Shown in pieces: positions 42,528 through 58,279 of a stretch of 64,000 nt of DNA. The notes under the pieces were generated by a model. That model was not told the DNA's origin. It saw only the letters and a program-made list of their open reading frames with translations, and made no database searches. Origin of the DNA: Ferrimicrobium acidiphilum DSM 19497. Lineage in GTDB: Bacteria > Actinomycetota > Acidimicrobiia > Acidimicrobiales > Acidimicrobiaceae. The position numbers and the translations under genes were made by a program. How positions within the stretch are numbered: the first letter of the stretch is position 1; each line of letters starts with the position of its first letter. The stretch is from positions 1-64,000 of the forward strand of contig NZ_JXUW01000015.1 of the NCBI RefSeq assembly GCF_000949255.1, in the 5' to 3' direction.

Positions 42528-43073
42528 ATGGATCAAATCCAGGCCAAATCTATCCACATGAATGTCAATAGAGCCGACCTTAACCTCGCTGCCATGAAAC
42601 GGAGCATGGGAAGACGGGCATTCCGCCGTTCGGTATCTGATGCCGGACTCGGAGCCTTTCGACCAACGCTTACCTACAAGGCAGAACGTGTGGGAGTGAA
42701 GGTAGTCGTTGTAAATCGCTTCTTCCCGTCATCACAGATCCACCACAACTGCGGAGGCAGACTAACGGGTGCAAAGCTCGCTAAAAGGCTGACCTGTGAT
42801 ACCTGCCACGTTGAGGTAGATCGCGATGAGAATGCTTCGCTAAATATCCGTGACTGGTCGGTTATCAGTTGTGGGCTAGTTGAGTCCAGCGCCCTGTTCG
42901 TTCCCAGGCCATTTGGTACAGGCGACAGTTCAGATGATGGGATGACTCATCACCTGGAGAGAGCATGTAAGACCGGTAGCAATACTGGCCGTGCTCGGCG
43001 AGGCAAGAACAACCCTCGAAGGAATGAGCATGAAGTCCGAGACGAGAACCTTGAAAAAGGTGCATCTAAGTGA
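42528..43073 (+). pseudogene. TnpB fragment (IS200/IS605-type), C-terminal part
   Basis: The 181-residue frame carries LNLAAMKRSMGRRAFRRSV, YKAERVGVKVVVVNRFFPSS, then a degenerate zinc ribbon (CGGRL...LTCDTCHVEVDRDENASLNIRDW) with the last RuvC Asp in DRDENASLNI. One zinc-ribbon cysteine position reads SSQIHHNCGG in place of SSKxCxxCG. About half of a 400-residue TnpB is missing upstream and the first RuvC residues are absent. The tail after 42951 belongs to a sequence repeated at 45923. It is not closely similar to the remnant at 8550-9147. Confidence 0.82.
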
Positions 43074-44042: not shown

Positions 44043-44807
44043 TGTCGTCAAATTATCAACGTATGTCAAGAGAGAGGAGTCTCCAAGAAGCCCGGGGCGG
44101 TTCAGTTTCAGTACTCCCATGATGGAGTTCGAAGCTGGGCGTACGATACATCCCTACCGTCAACTGCTAGACCAGGATATTCCACGAGCGGTACCGTGGC
44201 AATGCTGGTCGGCCCCACCGGCGGGCTTGATCTATTTTTGGCACCAGCGCCCGGTACTGCCAGCTCTCCAGCGACGCTGTGGCAAAGCAACAGTAGCGGA
44301 GGAAGTTGGGTTGGCCATAGCGTTCCGTGTGGATTCTCTCCCTGCGCGGTGGCGCTTGCCGTGGGGCCAGCAGGAGAACTCGTAGCCGGATGTGGGAGCG
44401 AGCCTGGGACAGGTCAGCAGCCAAAGTCCATCGCTGTTTCGTCGAACAACGGGACAACTTGGAAGACGGTGCTTGCTTGTCAATTTTCCTTAACGATCCC
44501 TACCACGTGTCTCCACTCTCCGCTCGTCAATGGATATCTCGGTGAACTCGTAGTGCCCATTAGCACAAGAATCGTTCTTGTCGGCTCGAGAAGCCCCCTA
44601 CTCGTTTCCTCCAACGGTGGTACAAGCTGGGCACCTTCGCCAAGTGTCGCCGCCGATTGCAGAGGAGGTACGCTTCAAATCCATTTCCTCAACTCCCAAG
44701 TGGGATTCTTACTTGGTGACGACGCGAACCTAGGAGAGGATCCGGTCATCTGGCGCACGAGCGATGGCGGTAGCTCCTGGACGACGGTAAGCTCGCAACG
44801 GAAGTGA
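44043..44807 (+). pseudogene. Asp-box/BNR-repeat protein, 5'-truncated
   Basis: The frame is open from 44043 to 44807 but has no start codon before GTG 44196. It already reads FQYSHDGVRSWAYDT upstream of that GTG, which belongs to the repeat fold. Asp-box blades follow: SNSSGGSWVGH, SSNNGTTWKTV, SSNGGTSWAPS and TSDGGSSWTTV, each SxDGGxxW-like. No signal peptide remains, although such beta-propeller proteins are usually exported. Either translation starts at 44196 (203 residues) or the gene is a relic. It lies within the IS-bracketed island. Confidence 0.7.
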
Positions 44808-44845: not shown

Positions 44846-45751
44846 TTATTTCCTGGGTTTGTCGTTGTCTCGGCGTGGTTCTAGACTACAAGTTTTTGAG
44901 ACCTCAGATTCGTCCGTATGATGCTCACGCTCAAGGTGATGTAACCCTAAAACCCCATACTCATCCCGGGAGAAGTGCTCGATCTTAGCGATGTCCACTT
45001 CTAGACGTCGCAAAGGACTAATACGTAGCACAGTTAGCGCAATGATACAGCCAACGAATGGGCCGACAATGTATACCCAGAATCCATGCCAGTCACCGGA
45101 GACGACCGCCGGGCCAAGGCTACGAGCTGGATTCGTGCTCGTTCCCGACAGCGTTGCCTCCAACCAGACCATGATTCCATAGAGCGGAGGGAAGAGTAGC
45201 GGGGTAAATTTGCGAATGCGCTCTACGCCTAGCACGCTGAAGAGCGCAACTACTAAGACAAAAGTGGTGCCGACTTCACCCAATGCGGCATTGAGCGAGC
45301 CGTATTTTACAGAAGGTAGCGTTGCGCCAAATGCAACGCTCTTCCCCACCGGTCCCCACAGGAGTAAAGGTACCGATCCGAGTACCGCTCCGGAGAGCTG
45401 TGCAAGAATGTATCCTGCAGCAAGCGGGGTAGAGATCGTACCTCGAAGGCGGAACGCTAGGGTCACCACTGGATTGATATGAGCTCCACTGCGCTTGCCG
45501 ATGGACGAAAGAGCAATGGAGCCTCCCACAGAGCCGAAGAGAAATCCGGTCAGAGCGCGACGAACTGAGTTGCTAGGAACCCATCTCAACATCGGGCTCC
45601 CATGGCCGAAGTTGAGGATGACGATCGAAAGACCAGCGCCCAACAACAACGCGGTGCCAATGAACTCCGACAACAGTAGCGGCCAGGGCACCTGAGCGAC
45701 AAGGGATCGCTTCGTTTTGCCCACCTTGTTCTTGACCGTATCTGAGCTCAC
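44846..45751 (-). CDS. MIP-family channel, aquaporin/glycerol-facilitator-like
   Basis: The 301-residue protein has six membrane helices and the two half-helix motifs: SGAHINPVVT (NPV where NPA is usual) and TSTNPARSLGP. Water or small neutral solutes would pass. N- and C-terminal cytoplasmic tails of about 25 and 60 residues are longer than in AqpZ, and the C-terminal tail is His/Glu-rich (LHHLEREHHTDE). ATG 45751. It is a single gene inside the island, convergent with the Asp-box fragment. Confidence 0.9.
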   Translation of the reverse strand: MSSDTVKNKVGKTKRSLVAQVPWPLLLSEFIGTALLLGAGLSIVILNFGHGSPMLRWVPSNSVRRALTGFLFGSVGGSIALSSIGKRSGAHINPVVTLAFRLRGTISTPLAAGYILAQLSGAVLGSVPLLLWGPVGKSVAFGATLPSVKYGSLNAALGEVGTTFVLVVALFSVLGVERIRKFTPLLFPPLYGIMVWLEATLSGTSTNPARSLGPAVVSGDWHGFWVYIVGPFVGCIIALTVLRISPLRRLEVDIAKIEHFSRDEYGVLGLHHLEREHHTDESEVSKTCSLEPRRDNDKPRK

Positions 45752-46078: not shown

Positions 46079-46274
46079 GAAGCGAGTGATCTGGCGATCG
46101 TTCGTTCGTGACTGTGCTACGCTCTACACTGGCGGCGGGGGCAGTGGACGCCAAGTCAGATCCGAGACCATAGCGAAATGGCTTGTCTTGCGCTTCTCCT
46201 GAACGAAAGGGTGAAATCGAGCGTGTATCACCCGAGCGTGATGCACCTGATTCTTCGTGAAAGGTAAGCAAGAG

Positions 46275-47444
46275 ATGGCCTCAATTGTTCTCGAGAATGT
46301 CACCAAGACATACTCGAACGACTACTGCGCAGTGAAGGATTTGAATTTGGCCGTGAACGACGGAGAGTTCATGGTCCTCGTGGGTCCGTCGGGGTGCGGC
46401 AAGACGACGGTGCTCAGAATGGTCGCCGGACTCGAGGATATATCCTCTGGGAGTCTCCTGATGGGAGATCGGCTGGTAAACGATCTCGAGCCAAAGGACC
46501 GCGACATGGCGATGGTGTTTCAAAGCTATGCCCTGTATCCTCACATGACGGTAGCGGAGAACATCGGCTTCGCTCTGCGGATGAAGAAGCTTCCCAAACA
46601 GCAAGTTCGCAAACGAGTGGAGGACGCAGCCGAGATACTCGGCCTCACCGGCCTCTTGGATGCCAAGCCGAAACAGCTCTCGGGAGGACAGCGCCAGCGA
46701 GTCGCTATGGGTCGAGCTATCGTGCGCGAGCCGAGTGCATTCCTGATGGACGAGCCGTTGTCGAACCTCGATGCGAAATTGCGAGTCAAGATGCGTGCTG
46801 AGGTGAAGAGAATTCAGGCTCAGCTGGGGGTGTCGACGATCTACGTCACCCACGATCAGATGGAGGCCATGACGATGGGGGATAGGGTCGCCGTGTTGCG
46901 GGACGGCCTCCTTCAGCAGTGTGATACCCCGCAGAATCTCTACGACAATCCGGTCAGTCAGTTTGTGGCCGCCTTCATTGGATCTCCCGCCATGAATCTC
47001 TACGAGGCTAATCTCTTGGAGGGAGCGCGAGCGCTGCGTCTTGGGTCCCAGGTTCTTGAGCTGCCCGAGTCCGTTCGGATATCGCACCCCTCGCTCGTCC
47101 GCTATGGAGGGGGACGGATTACCGTTGGTATCCGGCCAAACGATCTTCGTGTGGCGACCCAGAACGACGGCTTTACCTTTACGGCGGAGGTGGTGCTGCT
47201 AGAGGCGCTCGGGGCCGAAATTCTAGTGCACTTCACCTTGGATGCGACTGCAGCCAAGGTCGAGGGCGCTGTGGAGGACGACGGTGAGATTCTGATTGGG
47301 GGAGGCGAGGGTGTGGTGCGCGTTGAGCCGGACCTCCCTGTCCACGTTGGCGAGCGGCTTGTGCTGTCGCCGGACTTCGAGCGCCTGCATTTCTTCGATC
47401 CAACGACAGGGCTTGCAGTGGGGAAAGGGCCGCTCACGCCCTAA
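46275..47444 (+). CDS. Sugar ABC importer ATPase (MsmK/UgpC-like)
   Basis: The 389-residue ATPase of the CUT1 family has Walker A GPSGCGKTT, the Q-loop VFQSYALYPHMTV, signature LSGGQRQRVAMGRAIV, Walker B AFLMDEPLSNLD, the H-loop VTHDQMEAM, and a C-terminal OB-type regulatory domain (from about residue 240). Such ATPases often serve several sugar importers. ATG 46275, preceded by AAGAG, fits the conserved ASIVLENVTKTY start; the frame at 46257 adds six residues. It is the first gene of a co-directional operon with the LacI-hydrolase fusion, receptor and permeases. Confidence 0.93.
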   Translation: MASIVLENVTKTYSNDYCAVKDLNLAVNDGEFMVLVGPSGCGKTTVLRMVAGLEDISSGSLLMGDRLVNDLEPKDRDMAMVFQSYALYPHMTVAENIGFALRMKKLPKQQVRKRVEDAAEILGLTGLLDAKPKQLSGGQRQRVAMGRAIVREPSAFLMDEPLSNLDAKLRVKMRAEVKRIQAQLGVSTIYVTHDQMEAMTMGDRVAVLRDGLLQQCDTPQNLYDNPVSQFVAAFIGSPAMNLYEANLLEGARALRLGSQVLELPESVRISHPSLVRYGGGRITVGIRPNDLRVATQNDGFTFTAEVVLLEALGAEILVHFTLDATAAKVEGAVEDDGEILIGGGEGVVRVEPDLPVHVGERLVLSPDFERLHFFDPTTGLAVGKGPLTP

Positions 47445-47532: not shown

Positions 47533-47550
47533 TGCTTAAGCGATTAAGCA
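47533..47550. promoter_or_regulatory. LacI-type operator upstream of the fusion gene
   Basis: tgcttaagcgattaagca is an 18-bp near-perfect palindrome (8 of 9 pairs) with the central CG typical of LacI-family sites. It lies 37 bases before the TTG start and is the likely autoregulatory operator of the fused repressor. A shorter related palindrome, aagcgctt, occurs at about 47620-47630 within the 5' coding part. Confidence 0.65.
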
Positions 47551-47586: not shown

Positions 47587-50500
47587 TTGAACTCGAAGAG
47601 TGGGAATGGGGACCATCGCTTAAGCGCTTCATCACGTCAGATGCAAGACGGTGATGGGAAGCGGCGAGTGCCACAAATTGAGGACGTAGCTCGTGAAGCT
47701 GGGGTTTCCATCGCTACGGTCTCCTACGTGCTCAACGAACGAGGACGGGTATCCGCGGCCACGCGGGAGCGGGTGCGCAAGGTCATCCAGGATCTCGGCT
47801 ATGTCTCGAGTGCGCGCGGGAGGTCGCTGGCGTTGGGGCAGTCCCAGACCGTCGGTTTGTTTGCCAGTCAGGACATGGTGAATTCCGAGGGGTTTGCACC
47901 GCTCGTGAGCAGTCTGACGCTGGCACTTCTCGACAAGGGATATCATCTACTGCTACTCGGTGGTGAGGTCACCGGCGGCGTCAGCTCACTCCGCGAGGTA
48001 GCGGACTCCGGTCGAGTGGACGGAGTGGTGGTGATGGCCCTCGACGGGGAGGCGCTCGGTTGGGAGTCGTCGATCCATATTCCACTGGTGCTGCTTGGGC
48101 CGGGTGCACCGGGCTTCGCCAGAGTCGACGTCGATCATGGCGCGGCGGCGCAGCTGGCGACAAGGCATCTGTTGGACCTGGGTCATCGACAGCTCGGTCT
48201 GGTCACTTACCCGTCGGCTCTTGCGGAGCTATGGGAGCGCGCCTGTCAGGGCGTGGTCACCGATGTATCGGGTACCCTGGTTACGCTCTCGGGTCCTCGT
48301 GGTTTTCGCGGAGGCTACGAGGCTGCCAAGGCGCTGCTGACCGGCATTGGGAGGCCGACTGGCCTAGTTGTGTTAGACGATGCAATGGCTGAAGGTGCCA
48401 TCGCTGCGGCCGGTGATCTGGGAATCGGAGTGCCTGAGCGACTCTCGGTCATTGGTTATGGCAACACCCATCATGGGGCGCAGGCGTTTCCCCCGATCAC
48501 GACCATCTCGCCTCACTGGGAGGCCCTAGGGAGTGTGGCTGGGACCACCATATTGGATACCCTAGAGGGCCATAGCTCGGCGGGCGGAATCGTGGAGCCT
48601 ACGTTAGTGGTTCGAGAGTCAACGGCACCGGCTGGATCGTTTGCAACGCCTGAGGTCGACATGGAAGAGCCGGTCATCAAGTCTGGGCCTGCCTTCGCAC
48701 TCTGGTCCAAGCAGTTGAGTATGAGCCCAGCCAGCGGGCGCCACGGGTTGTATATAGGCGACACCCGCATGCTCTCGCTGTATCAGGTGAGAGCCGATGG
48801 TAGGCCGCTGACGCCAGCGGCGGTTGAGCACGACGGTAGCCAGATTCGCGCAAGCTACATCACCAAGACGGCCGCTTCCACCTTCCGGATGATGCGAAGG
48901 ATCACCATTGCTCCCGATGAACTGGTTGATGAGTGGAGTTGGAACTGGTGGGGTCCAGTATTTCCCGTGGTCATAGAGCTTTCGGTCGCGTCGGACTTTC
49001 AGGACATCTTCGCGGTGCGTGGCATGACCCCTGGGGGGCATGGAACGGTGGTCTCGCGCTCGGATACATCGGCGATCGACATCGTCTACGAGGGACGAGA
49101 TGAGATCCGAAGGTCGGTCCGCATCGGTGTGGACCGGATGCCGGCACAGATGACGGATTTCGGATGGTCATGGAGCCTTCCGGTCGAGCCATCGAGCGGT
49201 GCCCTTACGATCACCACGAACTGGTCCAATCCTGTCATCTCCTTGATGCCCTCGCGAGAGATACCCTGGCCGCTCGTGGAGATGCGCGATGCCGATTGGA
49301 CCGGTGCCCTGCGTCGCGCACACGAGGATCTTGCGATGCTGACAACGGTTTACGAGGGAGAGCTTGCCCCGATGGCGGGATTGCCCTGGTTCGGTACCCT
49401 CTTCGGCAGAGACGCGATCATCACTGGATTAGAGACACTGACATTTGCGCCCGAGCTCTCCATCGGAGTTGCCAGAGTCTTAGCTCGCCTGCAGGGTACG
49501 CAGGTACGCCTCGAGACCGAGGAGGAGCCCGGGAAAATCATTCATGAGCTCCGCCTGGGGGAGATGGCGCGGGTAAAGGAGATTCCCTTTGGGCGCTATT
49601 ATGGCTCCGTCGATGCGACACCTCTCTTCGTTACCCTGGTGGCACGCACCTGGCGCCGGACTGGAGACCGATCGTTCCTAAATGAGATGTTGCCGGCGGT
49701 TGAACTCGCCATCGAGTGGATTAGAACGCAGCGCAATGAGGAGGGCCTTTTCGAGTTCCACCCGAGGAATGCGGAGGGGCTCCTGGTCCAGTCCTGGAAG
49801 GACTCCTCTGACTCCATGGTCTTCGCGGATGGCTCCCACGGGGCCCCGCCGCTTGCCGTGGCCGAAGTGCAGGGGTACGTCTATCAGGCCTTCAAGTCCT
49901 TGGCGATGACGTATCGGTCGATCGGACGAGTCGAGGAGGCCGAGGATCTAGAGATCGATGCCGAGGCGGTCCAAGTGGCGTTTCATGAGGCGTTCTGGCT
50001 CAAGGATCGTGACTACTACGCGCTGGCGGTCGACGGCATCGGACGACAGCTCGATTCGCTCTCCTCGGATCCCGGCCAGTGTCTTTGGAGCGGGATAGTA
50101 CCCAAGCGGTATCGTGAGCCAACCCAACGGCGGCTGCTGTCGCCGGCGCTCTTTTCGGGATGGGGAATCCGAACGCTGGGCTCCTCTGAGTCGGCATATG
50201 ACCCCTACAGCTACCACCGGGGTAGCGTCTGGCCCCATGACACCGCTCTGATCGCAGCGGGGCTGCGAGCCAGTGGCGATCTGCTCGGAGCGGGACGGGT
50301 GGCACGCGCGCTGCTGGATGCCGCCGCATCGTTTCCCCAGCATCGCTTGCCCGAACTCTTCTCCGGAGAAGAGAGAGGAAACAGGGGCCCGTTCCCGTAT
50401 CCGGGGGCGTGCTCTCCGCAGGCCTGGGCAGCGGGGGCGGTCTGGCAGGTGACTGCGACGCTGCTGGGGATCGAGGTGGATGCCATCGAGCGGATCGTCT

Positions 50501-50652
50501 CGCTTTCGCCGCTGGAGGTCGCGAGAACCCATCCGATTCGGATCCGAGGTTTGCCAGTCGCGGGTTCTCTAGTGGATATCGAGTGGGACGCAGGTCATGT
50601 GTCCTGCTCCGAGCTCCCAGAGGGCTGGTGTATCGAGACCGCTCCGCTTTAA
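47587..50652 (+). CDS. LacI-type repressor fused to amylo-alpha-1,6-glucosidase-type hydrolase
   Basis: One 1021-residue uninterrupted frame. Residues about 29-78 are a LacI helix-turn-helix and hinge (IEDVAREAGVSIATVSYVLN, then RVRKVIQDLGY). Residues about 85-346 are the complete sugar-sensing domain, ending with PTLVVRESTAPAG. Residues about 368-555 resemble the N-terminal beta-sandwich of glycogen-debranching-type enzymes (GLYIGDTRMLSLYQV). Residues about 570-965 form an (alpha/alpha)6 hydrolase with GLPWFGTLFGRDAIIT, QSWKDSSDSMVFADG, SYHRGSVWPHDTALIAAG and LPELFSGEE, whose Asp/Glu residues are the usual catalytic candidates. TTG 47587 has AGGGGG upstream; ATG 47641 is an alternative. It would cleave alpha-linked glucosides while repressing its own operon; the mechanism is inferred. 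A base error joining two genes is unlikely, since no stop or restart is visible at the junction. Confidence 0.93.
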   Translation: MNSKSGNGDHRLSASSRQMQDGDGKRRVPQIEDVAREAGVSIATVSYVLNERGRVSAATRERVRKVIQDLGYVSSARGRSLALGQSQTVGLFASQDMVNSEGFAPLVSSLTLALLDKGYHLLLLGGEVTGGVSSLREVADSGRVDGVVVMALDGEALGWESSIHIPLVLLGPGAPGFARVDVDHGAAAQLATRHLLDLGHRQLGLVTYPSALAELWERACQGVVTDVSGTLVTLSGPRGFRGGYEAAKALLTGIGRPTGLVVLDDAMAEGAIAAAGDLGIGVPERLSVIGYGNTHHGAQAFPPITTISPHWEALGSVAGTTILDTLEGHSSAGGIVEPTLVVRESTAPAGSFATPEVDMEEPVIKSGPAFALWSKQLSMSPASGRHGLYIGDTRMLSLYQVRADGRPLTPAAVEHDGSQIRASYITKTAASTFRMMRRITIAPDELVDEWSWNWWGPVFPVVIELSVASDFQDIFAVRGMTPGGHGTVVSRSDTSAIDIVYEGRDEIRRSVRIGVDRMPAQMTDFGWSWSLPVEPSSGALTITTNWSNPVISLMPSREIPWPLVEMRDADWTGALRRAHEDLAMLTTVYEGELAPMAGLPWFGTLFGRDAIITGLETLTFAPELSIGVARVLARLQGTQVRLETEEEPGKIIHELRLGEMARVKEIPFGRYYGSVDATPLFVTLVARTWRRTGDRSFLNEMLPAVELAIEWIRTQRNEEGLFEFHPRNAEGLLVQSWKDSSDSMVFADGSHGAPPLAVAEVQGYVYQAFKSLAMTYRSIGRVEEAEDLEIDAEAVQVAFHEAFWLKDRDYYALAVDGIGRQLDSLSSDPGQCLWSGIVPKRYREPTQRRLLSPALFSGWGIRTLGSSESAYDPYSYHRGSVWPHDTALIAAGLRASGDLLGAGRVARALLDAAASFPQHRLPELFSGEERGNRGPFPYPGACSPQAWAAGAVWQVTATLLGIEVDAIERIVSLSPLEVARTHPIRIRGLPVAGSLVDIEWDAGHVSCSELPEGWCIETAPL

Positions 50653-50747: not shown

Positions 50748-52034
50748 GTGAACAGAGTTATTCGCAGATTAGTGCAGGGGTCGGTTTCCCTATCGTGCCT
50801 GACATTGTTATTAGCGGCTTGCGGGGGGACTTCGAACGCCTCATCGTCATCGAGTAGTGGGCCAGTGACGATCACCCTCTCAGGGTGGACATCGTCCCCG
50901 GTAGAGGCGCAACTCTTACAGAAGGACCTCAGTGGATTTAGCAAGCTATACCCAAATATTCATGTGAATTACCGACCTATCTCGGGTTCCGGTAGCAACT
51001 ATGAATCGGTACTACGTACGAGATTTGTTGCCGGCAATGCCCCTGACGTCATCTATGTCAATAACGGAGGCGAGTCGAGCACATTCATGGCGGATCATGT
51101 TTTGGTTCCTCTCAACTCCTACATCAAGGCATCACATTTCTCAATCGGTGATTTCTACCCCAGTTCCTTGGCGCTGTTCAAGAAGGGAGGTAATATCTAC
51201 GGAATACCCAAGGACCAGTCGCCGCTAGCACTGTTCTACAACACGGCTATGTTCAAGAAGGCAGGGATCAAGAGCCCTCCGACCACCTGGGCCCAACTCG
51301 CTGCCGATGCCAAGATCCTTACCAATCCGTCCCAACATGTCTATGGTCTGATCAACTCGGTGCAGGAGCCACGGTGGGCCGAGTTCTTGTATCAGAGTGG
51401 TGGTGGCGTGATGAACTCGACGATGTCAAAGTTCACCCTCACGAGTCCGGCTTCGGTCAAGGGTTTTCAGTTCTTTGTAAACCTGTACCGCCATGGTTAC
51501 GCCACTGTGCCCACCAGCGTAGGGGCGAGTTGGGGCGGGCAGGCCTTTGGCATGGGCAAGGCCGCGATGGTGCTGTCGGGTGACTGGTTGGTCCCCTTCT
51601 TGAACCAGACCTATCCAAAGATTCACTTCAACACGGCGGTGCTCCCTTCTGGTCCGGTGAACAACATCTCGCTGACGTTTCCAGTGGCCTATGCCATCAC
51701 CAAGGACTCGAAACATCCGGGAGCATCCTGGAAGCTGATCTCCTATCTGACCAGCCAAAGTGGTATGACACGTTGGATGAATCTGGGATTGGCCCTTCCG
51801 ACACGCAAGTCACTCGTGAGTCTGCCGTACTATAAGAGTCATCCGGTGACCGCCGGACTGCTAGAGCAGCTGCCCCACACCATTGCTTGGACGTTCCCCC
51901 CTGGATTCGTTCAGTATTCTTCGACGACTATGGTTGACCAGGCTACCCTGGCCATCGAGGGTAAGGAATCTGCCGCGCAGGCGTTGGCGAATATGCAAAA
52001 GGCTGGACAGGCGATATTGAGTTCCCAGGGATAG
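50748..52034 (+). CDS. Sugar ABC receptor, lipoprotein (MalE-like)
   Basis: The 428-residue type I receptor (SBP_bac_1) has a lipoprotein signal ending LLAAC and a Ser-rich tether, then VTITLSGWTSSPVEAQLL, a central FVAGNAPDVIYVNNGG, YGIPKDQSPLALFYNTAMFKKAG, PPTTWAQLAADAKIL and KAAMVLSGDWLVPFL. These are typical of CUT1 receptors for maltodextrin-like sugars. GTG 50748 has GGGAGG at 50730-50735. It follows the fusion gene by 95 bases and precedes the two permease genes. Confidence 0.93.
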   Translation: MNRVIRRLVQGSVSLSCLTLLLAACGGTSNASSSSSSGPVTITLSGWTSSPVEAQLLQKDLSGFSKLYPNIHVNYRPISGSGSNYESVLRTRFVAGNAPDVIYVNNGGESSTFMADHVLVPLNSYIKASHFSIGDFYPSSLALFKKGGNIYGIPKDQSPLALFYNTAMFKKAGIKSPPTTWAQLAADAKILTNPSQHVYGLINSVQEPRWAEFLYQSGGGVMNSTMSKFTLTSPASVKGFQFFVNLYRHGYATVPTSVGASWGGQAFGMGKAAMVLSGDWLVPFLNQTYPKIHFNTAVLPSGPVNNISLTFPVAYAITKDSKHPGASWKLISYLTSQSGMTRWMNLGLALPTRKSLVSLPYYKSHPVTAGLLEQLPHTIAWTFPPGFVQYSSTTMVDQATLAIEGKESAAQALANMQKAGQAILSSQG

Positions 52035-52050
52035 CACAGAGTAGGATTTC

Positions 52051-53007
52051 GTGACGGTACTTACTACCTCCAAGACCCCTGCCGCGGCGTCACCGCAACG
52101 CAGCGGTAGGGGCCCCCTGCGATTGTTCAAGCCATCGAGAAGAGCACGAGACGCGCGTATTGGCTTCGCGATGACGCTCCCGGGTGTTGCGATACTCTTC
52201 CTGTTCACGCTTGGACCAGCCCTGTATGCCTTCTACCTGAGCTTGTTCTCCTGGTCGCTGCTCAATCATATGCATTATGTTGGTTTGTCGAACTTTGGAT
52301 TCCTGTTCACGTCGCATCTGTTTTGGACCGCGGTCGTAAACACCGTTACCTTTGCGTTGGTGGTAGTTCCCACACAGACGATCGTGGCGCTGTGCATCGC
52401 GGTGTTGTTGAATCAGAATCTACCGGCCAAGGGGTTCTTTCGGCTCGCATTCTTCTTCCCCGCCGTGAGCTCATCGGCGGTGATATCGATAATATTCATG
52501 TGGATCTATAACAAGTTCGGAATTCTGAATGGCTTTCTCAGTATTATCGGTATCCACGGACCCAACTGGTTGGCGAATCCGTTGTTCGCGCTGAAGGCCA
52601 TCATGATTATGAATATATGGACGACATCCGGATATTTCATGGTGGTATTCCTCTCGGGATTGCAGGCGATACCACAGAATATCTACGATGCCTCGCAGAT
52701 GGATGGTGCGAGTGTGTGGCAGCGATTCATTCATATCACCGTTCCCTTGCTTCGACCGACAACCTTCTTCGTGGTTATCATGGGCATGATCGGCACTCTG
52801 CAGATGTTCGATCAGTCCTTTATCTTGTCCGGTGGGACAGGGGGACCGCTTCACTCGACGACCACGATCGTATTGCTGATCTACCAGTACATATTCAGCT
52901 ATGGGAAGGTCGGTTATGGCGCGGCGGCGACGGTTCTCTTGTTCGTGTTGACGATGGGGATCACCTTAGTGGTGACGAAGTGGCTTGGGAAGCCGATCGA
53001 GTATTAG
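52051..53007 (+). CDS. Sugar ABC permease, MalF-like
   Basis: The 318-residue protein has six membrane helices and the EAA loop near the end (ASQMDGASVWQRFIHITVPLLRP). It begins TLPGVAILFLFTLGPALYAFYLSLFSW. It starts with GTG 52051, preceded by a GA-rich stretch, 16 bases after the receptor stop. It pairs with the MalG-like permease. Confidence 0.93.
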   Translation: MTVLTTSKTPAAASPQRSGRGPLRLFKPSRRARDARIGFAMTLPGVAILFLFTLGPALYAFYLSLFSWSLLNHMHYVGLSNFGFLFTSHLFWTAVVNTVTFALVVVPTQTIVALCIAVLLNQNLPAKGFFRLAFFFPAVSSSAVISIIFMWIYNKFGILNGFLSIIGIHGPNWLANPLFALKAIMIMNIWTTSGYFMVVFLSGLQAIPQNIYDASQMDGASVWQRFIHITVPLLRPTTFFVVIMGMIGTLQMFDQSFILSGGTGGPLHSTTTIVLLIYQYIFSYGKVGYGAAATVLLFVLTMGITLVVTKWLGKPIEY

Positions 53008-53012
53008 GTGTG

Positions 53013-53864
53013 ATGATGCAAAATACAAGGCGAAGATCACGGCGTATCAGGCGTCATATTTCACGGTGGTTCTATCTGGCCATTCTTACCATGGGTGCGC
53101 TGGTGATGTTCATTCCGTTCGCATGGAGCCTTTCGACGTCGCTGAAGCCATTATCGGAGTCGCTGGTCTATCCCCCGGTGTGGATTCCCCATATCTTTGA
53201 CTGGGAGAACTACGTCAAGATCTGGCATCTTGTACCGCTGGCGCGGTGGTTTGGCAACAGTGCCATCGCCGCCATTGGGGTGACGATTGGCAATCTGATC
53301 TGTGACTCCATGGCTGGTTATGCACTTGCACGCGTTCAGTTCCGTGGTCAGCGGTTGATGTTCATTGGCGTGCTGGCGATGTTGATGGTGCCATTCCAGT
53401 CGGTTATGTTGCCGGTATACATTCTGCTACGTGCCTTTGGTCTGCTGGACAACTATTATGGGCTCATCATTCCCCTCGCGGTGCAAGCGGTTGGCATCTT
53501 CTTGATGCGTCAGGCCTTCTTGAACTTGCCGAGCGACCTTGAGGATGCCGCCATTATGGATGGAGCCGGCAGGTTTCGAATGTTTTGGCAGCTCAGCCTT
53601 CCACTCGTGCTCCCGTCATTGTTGACCCTAGCTTTGATCTCATTCATGTTGTCATGGAACAACTTTCTCTTGCCATTGCTGGTTGCGAGTAGACCGCATC
53701 TTTGGACAGTTCCCCTTGGTGTGGTCATGTTTCAACAGGAGTACTTCGTCAACTGGCCATATCTCATGGCAGCTGCGGTGATGACGACGATTCCGGTGGC
53801 GGTTATCTTTCTCGTCTTCCAGAAGTGGTTCGTCCGTGGAATAGCAACAACGGGCATGCGCTAG
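53013..53864 (+). CDS. Sugar ABC permease, MalG-like
   Basis: The 283-residue protein has six membrane helices and the typical MalG sequence VMFIPFAWSLSTSLKP, MVPFQSVMLPVYILLRAFGLLDNYYGLIIP and the EAA loop LEDAAIMDGAGRFRMFWQLSLPLVLP. The frame is open far upstream, but ATG 53013, just after the MalF stop, begins the conserved part. It ends the importer operon. Confidence 0.93.
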   Translation: MMQNTRRRSRRIRRHISRWFYLAILTMGALVMFIPFAWSLSTSLKPLSESLVYPPVWIPHIFDWENYVKIWHLVPLARWFGNSAIAAIGVTIGNLICDSMAGYALARVQFRGQRLMFIGVLAMLMVPFQSVMLPVYILLRAFGLLDNYYGLIIPLAVQAVGIFLMRQAFLNLPSDLEDAAIMDGAGRFRMFWQLSLPLVLPSLLTLALISFMLSWNNFLLPLLVASRPHLWTVPLGVVMFQQEYFVNWPYLMAAAVMTTIPVAVIFLVFQKWFVRGIATTGMR

Positions 53865-55717: not shown

Positions 55718-58279
55718 CTAAGACCTCGGTTCTGCTACTCGCAGGCTTATGATCATCGTCGTGCCACCTCCGGCAGTGTCGTCGAGCGTGAGTTCACCTC
55801 CCATGGCTTCAATGAACCCTTTGGCCACCGCCAACCCAAGACCTACACCATTGTCGCTATCTTGATGACCGAGCCGTTGGAAGGGCATGAAGATGCGGCT
55901 CCTGTCTACAGCTGCTATGCCTGGCCCTCGGTCGACGATCCGCAGTTCCATCCAGTCATCCGGTTGGTGACCGGCGACGACACGCACCGGGGTATGTTGG
56001 CTCGATGCAGAGAGAGCGTTGGCCAATAAATTGGCGACTGCTCGCTCAAGCAATGGCGGGTCTGCTTGTACTTGAGGCAAAGTTTCAGGTACTTCGAGGT
56101 CGAGCTGGTGATCGCTGGGCGGGAGGGAGATTAAAGCGGCTGAGACGATCTCGTTAAGTGCCACTGGCTGGAGACGAACGATGAGCGCTCCAGTCTGTAT
56201 TCTACTCATGTCTAGTAGGTTGAACACCAAGGCGTTGAGGCGATCGACTTCGGCATCTATCGTTTCGAGAAGAGTCCTAGCGGCTGTCAAGTCCCATGTT
56301 GCGTCGTCCGGGAGGAGGCTCGTTACCGCCACCTTAATGGAAGCGAGCGGTGTTCGAAGATCGTGACTGACGGCGACCAGTAGCGCTGTGCGCACATCAT
56401 TGGCCTTGGCCAGAGCCGCTGCCTCGGCTGCTTGTTCTCGAAGCTGCCGGTTGGCTACAGCAACCGCTATCTGGGTCACGAAGATGCTGAGCATCTCTCG
56501 ATCCTCGGCCCGTAACCGCGCAGAGTCAAGCACCAGCAGCAGGTCGGAGCCTATCGGTATGCTAAGAGTTGCTTCCTTGGGCGAAGAGGGTGGATGTGGT
56601 CCAGTTGCGATTTCTGGAGTCCAACCCTCGTCAACGGCACGTAGAACAGCGACCCCGTCTACTAAGAAGGTGCTGTATATCTCCTCCATCAGGTCTGGCA
56701 AGGGATCGGATAGATTTAAAAGTGCGCTCGAGGTTCGAGCCATCGAGGCCGCCTGGGAGCGAATGCGATGTGCATCAAACGAGCGACGGGCGACGAGGCC
56801 GACCTGGACGATAACAACGCCTGCTATCACAAGGAAGATAGAGAGGGCGATGATGTCCCGAGGATCCGTGATGGCAAGGGCATGGGTTGGTGGACTGAAG
56901 TACCAGTTGAGCAGTAAAAATCCGCCGATCGCGCCGATCACACCAGGGCCGACACCACCTATGCCGGCTCCGGCAATGACTGGTAGAAGATAGACGAGTG
57001 ACACTGTACCGAGGGGTAAATGACCCCGTATGGATGTCAGGCCCAGCGTGACCAACGGAATCGCGACGACAACCACCAACAGTCCAACAATCTGCCGACG
57101 CCAGCTGATGACGCCTAGCTCTCGCCTAAGCCATCCAAGGCCCCACCAATTGGGCCGTCGCTCCCTTCTGGGTACACGATCACTCGGCTGCTCGGGTTTC
57201 AAACGGACAGGTGGGGATATGACATGAACGTCGAGTGCCTCGCCGGATTTAGCGATCACCGAGTTGATCACCGAGCCCGCACTTAGGCGTGCCCATCTGG
57301 ATCGGTGGCTTGTCCCCAACACGATCTGGGTACAATTCTCCGCTCGAGCTACTTGTATTAGCGCTTCTGCGATGTCTGAGCCAAGAATTTCACGATAGAT
57401 TCCGCCGAGCTCAATGACCAGGGAGCGCTGTCGTTCAAGGTCGTCGGGCCTTGACTGAAGGATGCCGTCGCCAGAGCGGATATGGACAGCAATCAGATCA
57501 CCCTTGACACGCTGAGCCATGCGGGCGGCTCGACGGATGAGGTGTTCGCCGTTAGCGCTACCGGTCAACGCAACCAGCACCCTTTCCCGGGTTTCCCAAG
57601 GTCCGTCTATGCCGTGACTATGACGATACTCCTGAATTCGTGCGTCTACGTCATCAGCAACCCACAGTAGAGCCAATTCACGCAGAGCTGCTAGGTTGCC
57701 CACACGAAAGTAATTGGCGAGCGCTATATCAATACGTTCGGGGGGATAGATGTGGCCATGAGCCATCCGCCGACGGATTGCTTCGGGGGTCATATCTACT
57801 AGTTCCACTTGTTCGGAGGCTCGCACAAAGGTATCGGGAACCGTCTCTCGCTGTGGCACTCCGGTGATGGTGGTTACCACGTCATTCAAGGACTCAAGGT
57901 GCTGGATGTTTAGTGTGGAGATCACGGTAATGCCAGCATCGAGCAAGTCCTCGATATCCTGCCACCGCTTTCCATGTACACTTCCCGGCACGTTGGTATG
58001 AGCCAGCTCGTCGACAAGAACCACTGAAGGCCGTCTCTGGATGATGGCCTCAAGATCCATTTCCAGTAGTGTTTGATTTCGGTAGACGAGAACCTTAGGC
58101 GGCACCACTTCGAGATCTCGCAGCTGCTCAGCCGTCTCGCTTCGATCATGCGTCTCCACCCAGCCCACCACGACATCGGTGCCACGACGATGACGACGCC
58201 AGCCCTCGTTTAACATAGCGTACGTCTTCCCAACGCCGGGAGCTACCCCTAGATACACCCGTAGTGACCCTCGTGTCAT
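55718..58279 (-). CDS. kdpD: Potassium/turgor sensor histidine kinase KdpD
   Basis: The 853-residue KdpD has the N-terminal KdpD domain with Walker A GVAPGVGKTYAML and VVVGWVETHDR, a UspA-like domain (about 230-355), four closely spaced membrane helices (about 390-480), a GAF-like linker, the phosphorylated histidine in LLVAVSHDLRTPLAS, and an HATPase domain with NLLANAL, DRGPGI and GVGLGLAVAKG. It senses K+ limitation and phosphorylates KdpE. ATG 58279. It is divergent from the kdpA operon. No kdpE follows within the window. Confidence 0.95.
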   Translation of the reverse strand: MTRGSLRVYLGVAPGVGKTYAMLNEGWRRHRRGTDVVVGWVETHDRSETAEQLRDLEVVPPKVLVYRNQTLLEMDLEAIIQRRPSVVLVDELAHTNVPGSVHGKRWQDIEDLLDAGITVISTLNIQHLESLNDVVTTITGVPQRETVPDTFVRASEQVELVDMTPEAIRRRMAHGHIYPPERIDIALANYFRVGNLAALRELALLWVADDVDARIQEYRHSHGIDGPWETRERVLVALTGSANGEHLIRRAARMAQRVKGDLIAVHIRSGDGILQSRPDDLERQRSLVIELGGIYREILGSDIAEALIQVARAENCTQIVLGTSHRSRWARLSAGSVINSVIAKSGEALDVHVISPPVRLKPEQPSDRVPRRERRPNWWGLGWLRRELGVISWRRQIVGLLVVVVAIPLVTLGLTSIRGHLPLGTVSLVYLLPVIAGAGIGGVGPGVIGAIGGFLLLNWYFSPPTHALAITDPRDIIALSIFLVIAGVVIVQVGLVARRSFDAHRIRSQAASMARTSSALLNLSDPLPDLMEEIYSTFLVDGVAVLRAVDEGWTPEIATGPHPPSSPKEATLSIPIGSDLLLVLDSARLRAEDREMLSIFVTQIAVAVANRQLREQAAEAAALAKANDVRTALLVAVSHDLRTPLASIKVAVTSLLPDDATWDLTAARTLLETIDAEVDRLNALVFNLLDMSRIQTGALIVRLQPVALNEIVSAALISLPPSDHQLDLEVPETLPQVQADPPLLERAVANLLANALSASSQHTPVRVVAGHQPDDWMELRIVDRGPGIAAVDRSRIFMPFQRLGHQDSDNGVGLGLAVAKGFIEAMGGELTLDDTAGGGTTMIISLRVAEPRS

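Follow-up and report, generated by a model that had tools for sequence, protein, structure and literature searches.

In the textbook case, a LacI repressor and the enzymes of its regulon are separate molecules. The window analyzed here, a stretch of 64,000 nucleotides from Ferrimicrobium acidiphilum DSM 19497 (contig NZ_JXUW01000015.1), raises the question of whether the two can be united in one chain, and what such a chain would sense, repress and cleave. The gene concerned lies at 47587..50652 on the plus strand, where a sequence-only reading had described a LacI regulator running without a stop into a hydrolase of the glycogen-debranching type. A single open frame does span these positions, with a TTG start, a TAA stop and 1021 codons without interruption, encoding a protein of 1021 aa.

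Architecture, integrity and origin of the fusion

The first half of the protein follows the order of LacI/GalR-type regulators, in which a helix-turn-helix domain (residues 31-73, 47677..47805, Pfam PF00356, E 6e-18) and a hinge helix precede a core resembling periplasmic binding proteins (approximately residues 87-346, 47845..48624). The core is defined by a Peripla_BP_3 match (PF13377, residues 193-346, E 7.5e-25) and by comparison with PurR, whose alignment spans residues 31-348; the hinge leucine is conserved, with Leu81 at the position of PurR L54. The linker STAPAGSFATPEVDMEEPV (residues 345-363, 48619..48675) then leads into a GDE_N_bis domain (residues 364-536, 48676..49194, PF14742, E 2.5e-18), followed by a glycoside hydrolase domain of the GDE_C/MGH1-like, (alpha/alpha)6 type (approximately residues 560-980, 49264..50526), all on the plus strand. 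Both hydrolase domains are recognized by sequence, the second from its matches to MGH1-like_GH (PF22422, residues 678-913, E 2e-15), GDE_C (PF06202, residues 671-952, E 4e-8) and 7vma, the closest solved structure to this half. All Pfam matches of the fusion protein exceed their curated gathering cut-offs, bearing out the LacI, Peripla_BP_3, GDE_N_bis and hydrolase assignments for which a domain search had been proposed. An AlphaFold run on three alignment rows only gave a pLDDT of 36.

A search for the same architecture in other genomes, also proposed in the sequence-only reading, returned four further full fusions from one family. These orthologs (L035, which is G308, L036, G313 and G314) carry identical Pfam domains in identical order, at 57-96% identity to the window protein (96%, 57%, 60% and, over the matched part, 63%, respectively). 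Among distant ortholog pairs, the 18-residue junction segment is 67-83% identical, higher than both the flanking GDE_N (47-56%) and LacI core (51-63%) regions, and all five orthologs share the stretch STAPAGSFATP of the linker without change. In both close ortholog pairs, dN/dS lies between 0.00 and 0.15 for the helix-turn-helix, core, linker, GDE_N and hydrolase segments, with 0.07-0.10 for the LacI core; judged from these ratios, both halves of the fusion are under purifying selection.

That the fusion is an artefact, in which a frameshift, an assembly join or internal initiation conceals two proteins, is hardly credible. An ATG at the junction (window position 48661) is found in the window and in L035, preceded in the window by GAGG, as an internal start would have it. 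However, the three distant orthologs read CTT, TTA or CTC at the corresponding codon, and a conserved internal start was rejected on this replacement in three of the five. A frameshift or join near 48620-48690, which had been named as the event that would separate two genes, was likewise rejected, given that five genomes from independent assemblies carry the fusion and that the linker is conserved as protein. With the LacI-hydrolase architecture present in other genomes, an assembly join is excluded, and by these comparisons so is the artefact reading as a whole, save for proteolytic processing at the linker.

The full fusion was found in four of 42 family genomes, from two genera, and additionally in G333, the genome of L036; the carriers therefore belong to a single actinobacterial family and span two or more of its genera. 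A further genome of another genus (G322) holds the C-terminal 193 residues only, located at the edge of a contig, with the importer genes behind them as elsewhere. L007, L027 and L030 contain long open frames that were considered as further fusions and rejected, having no LacI match. Outside the family, no match spanning both halves was found in 296 class, 397 order (among the matches listed, E <= 1e-108) and 396 phylum genomes, and stand-alone relatives of the hydrolase half are numerous in these samples of about 1,000 relatives. None of 72,556 plasmid records covers 80% of the fusion query. As for a precursor in which a stand-alone lacI sits beside gde, no LacI match was seen in the flanks of such genes (mostly 1.5 kb per side).

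A tree built from 71 hydrolase sequences groups the five fusions in a single clade with a support of 100 on a long stem of 1.44 changes per column, which together point to one origin; L024 is placed as its sister, a grouping that joins two long branches and is unreliable. On the evidence of this tree, the fusion arose once, long enough ago for members to be now approximately 57% identical.

Predicted operators and the importer genes

The sequence-only reading had noted an operator-like palindrome belonging to the gene itself. It corresponds to O1 (TGCTTAAGCGATTAAGCA, 47533..47550, plus strand), a near-perfect LacI-type palindrome 37 bp upstream of the TTG, with the central CG that is usual for LacI operators. 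A second putative site unnoticed in that reading, O2 (CGCTTAAGCGCTTCATCA, 47617..47634, plus strand), lies in the coding region, within leader codons 11-16. O1 is conserved upstream of all five fusion genes, and O2 recurs at the equivalent position in all five. When the whole genomes of the five carriers were scanned (3.09 Mb for the window's genome, G000), the O1 motif occurred with zero mismatches at one site each in G000, G308, G313 and G314, at the fusion gene, and with one mismatch in G333, while a reversed control pattern gave no sites in any of the five. In G000, O2 is the only site besides O1 within two mismatches. Further operator-like sites with two mismatches lie away from the fusion gene in G314 (C139:635-652) and G333 (C192:2862-2879), and these could be either chance occurrences or a second regulon member.

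The peptides encoded across O2 in the five orthologs are RLSAS, RLSGS, RLSAS, SLNAS and SLNAS, while the rest of the leader peptide is only 14-43% identical outside the window/L035 pair. In addition, the O2 codons TTA and TCA are rare in the fusion gene (5 of 104 Leu and 5 of 84 Ser codons). With two putative sites around the start codon, the arrangement points to local autoregulation of the fusion through O1 and O2. Their start-to-start spacing is 84, 87, 88, 70 and 72 bp in the five orthologs, or 8.0, 8.3, 8.4, 6.7 and 6.9 turns at 10.5 bp per turn; this phasing is not strict, and cooperative binding or looping across the two predicted sites is possible. No sigma-70 consensus promoter was found upstream of the fusion gene.

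The fusion is followed on the plus strand by genes for an extracellular oligosaccharide-binding lipoprotein of the SBP_bac_1 type (50748..52034), a MalF/UgpA-like sugar ABC permease (52051..53007, syntenic) and a MalG/UgpE-like sugar ABC permease (53019..53864, start codon provisional). The order of fusion, binding protein, first permease and second permease is kept in every locus with enough sequence, and the binding protein is 75-98% identical between fusion loci. A MalK/UgpC-like sugar ABC ATPase (46257..47444, plus strand) lies upstream of O1 in the window, and likewise upstream in L035 and L046, but downstream of the permeases in L036. As the place of the ATPase gene varies, the fusion is the first gene behind O1. 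The fusion had been placed inside a maltose-type importer operon; its adjacency to a sugar importer stands, but it heads the downstream set rather than lying mid-operon. Furthermore, relatives of the binding protein in the PDB bind various oligosaccharides, including maltose and acarbose, which does not fix the substrate. Maltodextrin, trehalose and isomaltose, named earlier as substrates, were a guess, the evidence being only generic: a fold of the alpha-glucosidase/debranching type and an oligosaccharide-binding protein.

Other genes of the window include a short open reading frame at 42528-43073 with a Cas12f1-like/TnpB zinc ribbon (PF07282), a truncated protein of the TnpB/OrfB type approximately 4 kb upstream of the importer genes. 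A small protein encoded at 44196-44804 carries BNR/Ycf48-like repeats and may be an exported beta-propeller fragment, and a MIP-family aquaporin/glycerol channel extended by long additional tails at both its N and its C terminus lies at 44846-45751 on the minus strand. An ordinary KdpD-type potassium sensor kinase is found at 55718-58279, also on the minus strand.

Active site, effector pocket and the place of sensing

The only PF14742 match in the window's genome is the fusion. Its hydrolase half matches 7vma, a putative archaeal-type debranching enzyme, over 392 residues with an E of 8e-88. The predicted catalytic residues Asp609 (GRD, 49411-49413, plus strand) and Glu923 (LPEL, 50353-50355, plus strand), which we take to correspond to the acid and base expected in hydrolases of the GDE/7vma-type clan, are kept in all five fusions. 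The 66 stand-alone enzymes used for comparison agree at 95% or more in 81 alignment columns, and all five fusions leave 68 of these unchanged, including D609, E923, H653, E654, D676, D739, H884, D885, Q945 and W947; fusion-specific changes at near-invariant positions include N828D, W691R and D715Q. With all of the predicted catalytic residues kept, the hydrolase half is probably active. Its specificity may have shifted along the long branch leading to the fusion clade.

The effector contacts of the LacI half are less well preserved. The comparison set the five fusions against PurR and 24 stand-alone LacI proteins from the same bacterial family, using the PurR sequence from the alignments of this half. 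At the position of PurR R196, all 24 stand-alone proteins have Arg, while the fusions have R, R, E, N and R, followed immediately by a deletion of about six residues in which the RxxG motif is lost. Every one of the five fusions has Arg at the F221 position, Pro at the Q292 position and Gly at the D275 position, which is Asp or Asn elsewhere. Several of the replacements in the pocket are fixed across the fusions (R238, D264 and G292). Such contact residues are usual in the LacI/GalR family and not strictly required, but with the canonical ones lost, sugar-regulated derepression is not assured, and the LacI core is a doubtful sugar sensor. These replacements would fit either a pocket re-tuned to an unusual ligand or a relocation of sensing, most interestingly into the hydrolase half. 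The earlier suggestion that the LacI half senses the substrate of the hydrolase is unsupported as stated, given that canonical effector contacts are changed in five of five fusions.

Fusion of neighboring operon genes is common, and it is plausible, though not the leading explanation, that this is an ordinary translational fusion of co-expressed, independent modules without cross-talk, in which LacI senses some ligand in a re-tuned pocket. Both halves are recognizable as full-length domains and the LacI core is conserved, as such an arrangement would predict, but the operon already provides co-expression, and the greater conservation of the linker than of both flanking domains in distant pairs suggests a constrained interface. 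In another reading, the hydrolase half itself would be the sugar sensor, ligand binding in the (alpha/alpha)6 domain being passed through the linker so that the LacI dimer frees its operators, with the old LacI pocket left as a degenerate scaffold. This is a tentative reading and on balance unlikely: the changes at the PurR R196, F221, D275 and Q292 positions in all five fusions, a short invariant linker suited to mechanical coupling and the retention of the fusion across genera speak for it, but purifying selection still acts on the LacI core, and the fixed R238, D264 and G292 also fit a pocket re-tuned to another ligand.

The fusion point also coincides with the place of the C-terminal tetramerization segment of LacI, which brings in a third, quite improbable role for the hydrolase half: a non-enzymatic oligomerization or ligand-binding module replacing the tetramerization helix, through which two dimers would loop O1 to O2. 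Two operators 70-88 bp apart are conserved in all orthologs and N828D, W691R and D715Q alter near-invariant residues in the fusions only, consistent with this role, but the predicted catalytic residues are all kept and the O1-O2 spacings are not strictly helically phased.

The reading preferred here, which we consider fairly probable, is that of a bifunctional, self-regulating protein at the head of the operon, repressor and glycosidase in a single chain; we infer its DNA binding, dimerization, catalysis and substrate alike. As a dimer, the LacI half would bind the O1 and O2 sites that flank its own start codon, and their occupancy would repress the fusion-importer operon. The C-terminal GDE_N_bis/GDE_C glycosidase would cleave the oligosaccharide delivered by the importer. 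As each repressor molecule is also an enzyme, the level of repressor to enzyme would be fixed at one to one; basal enzyme would already be there before induction, and new enzyme would also be new repressor, giving a built-in negative feedback. A loop in which one protein senses, represses and destroys the inducer is possible on this scheme, with a sensing step that is not deducible from LacI homology here, and the repressor switch and the enzyme may be physically coupled. A more speculative version, which we regard as doubtful, is a LacI with a retired pocket whose fused glycosidase both senses and destroys the inducer, such that turnover sets the on-time of the operon.

Relation to known regulators

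The fusion shares with LacI/GalR repressors such as PurR and LacI the order of helix-turn-helix, hinge and core, an even palindrome with a central CG, and an operator beside its own gene. It differs from them in its C-terminal enzyme, its altered effector contacts and a second operator in the leader codons. With hydrolases of the GDE_N_bis/amylo-alpha-1,6-glucosidase type it shares the full domain order, the predicted catalytic residues and 33-47% identity, whereas stand-alone GDE_N_bis relatives are approximately 715 aa in length and have no LacI half, and a long branch leads to the fusion clade.

MocR/PdxR, PutA, BirA and NadR likewise combine DNA binding with an enzyme-type domain in one chain, and to our knowledge none of these unites a complete LacI repressor with a glycoside hydrolase. 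In contrast to these proteins, the fusion brings a classical sensor domain and an enzyme together. In MocR, a regulator with a DNA-binding and an enzyme-type domain in one chain has been described (PMC5320631). Regulator-enzyme fusions are in this sense already known, while the combination of a complete LacI with a glycoside hydrolase is apparently undescribed: no description of LacI-hydrolase fusions was found in the literature searched, which took in few subscription journals, and an annotated LacI-GDE example may exist elsewhere. The genomes searched outside the family likewise gave no match spanning both halves.

The carriers belong to a small family of acid-loving, iron-oxidizing bacteria in which the fusion has long been maintained. 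In this family, a LacI repressor and an enzyme of its regulon were united before at least two genera diverged, and the usual sugar contacts of the repressor were changed. The fusion makes it testable whether the active site of an enzyme can substitute for the ligand pocket of a repressor, and it would offer a compact natural blueprint for a switch clearing its own inducer.
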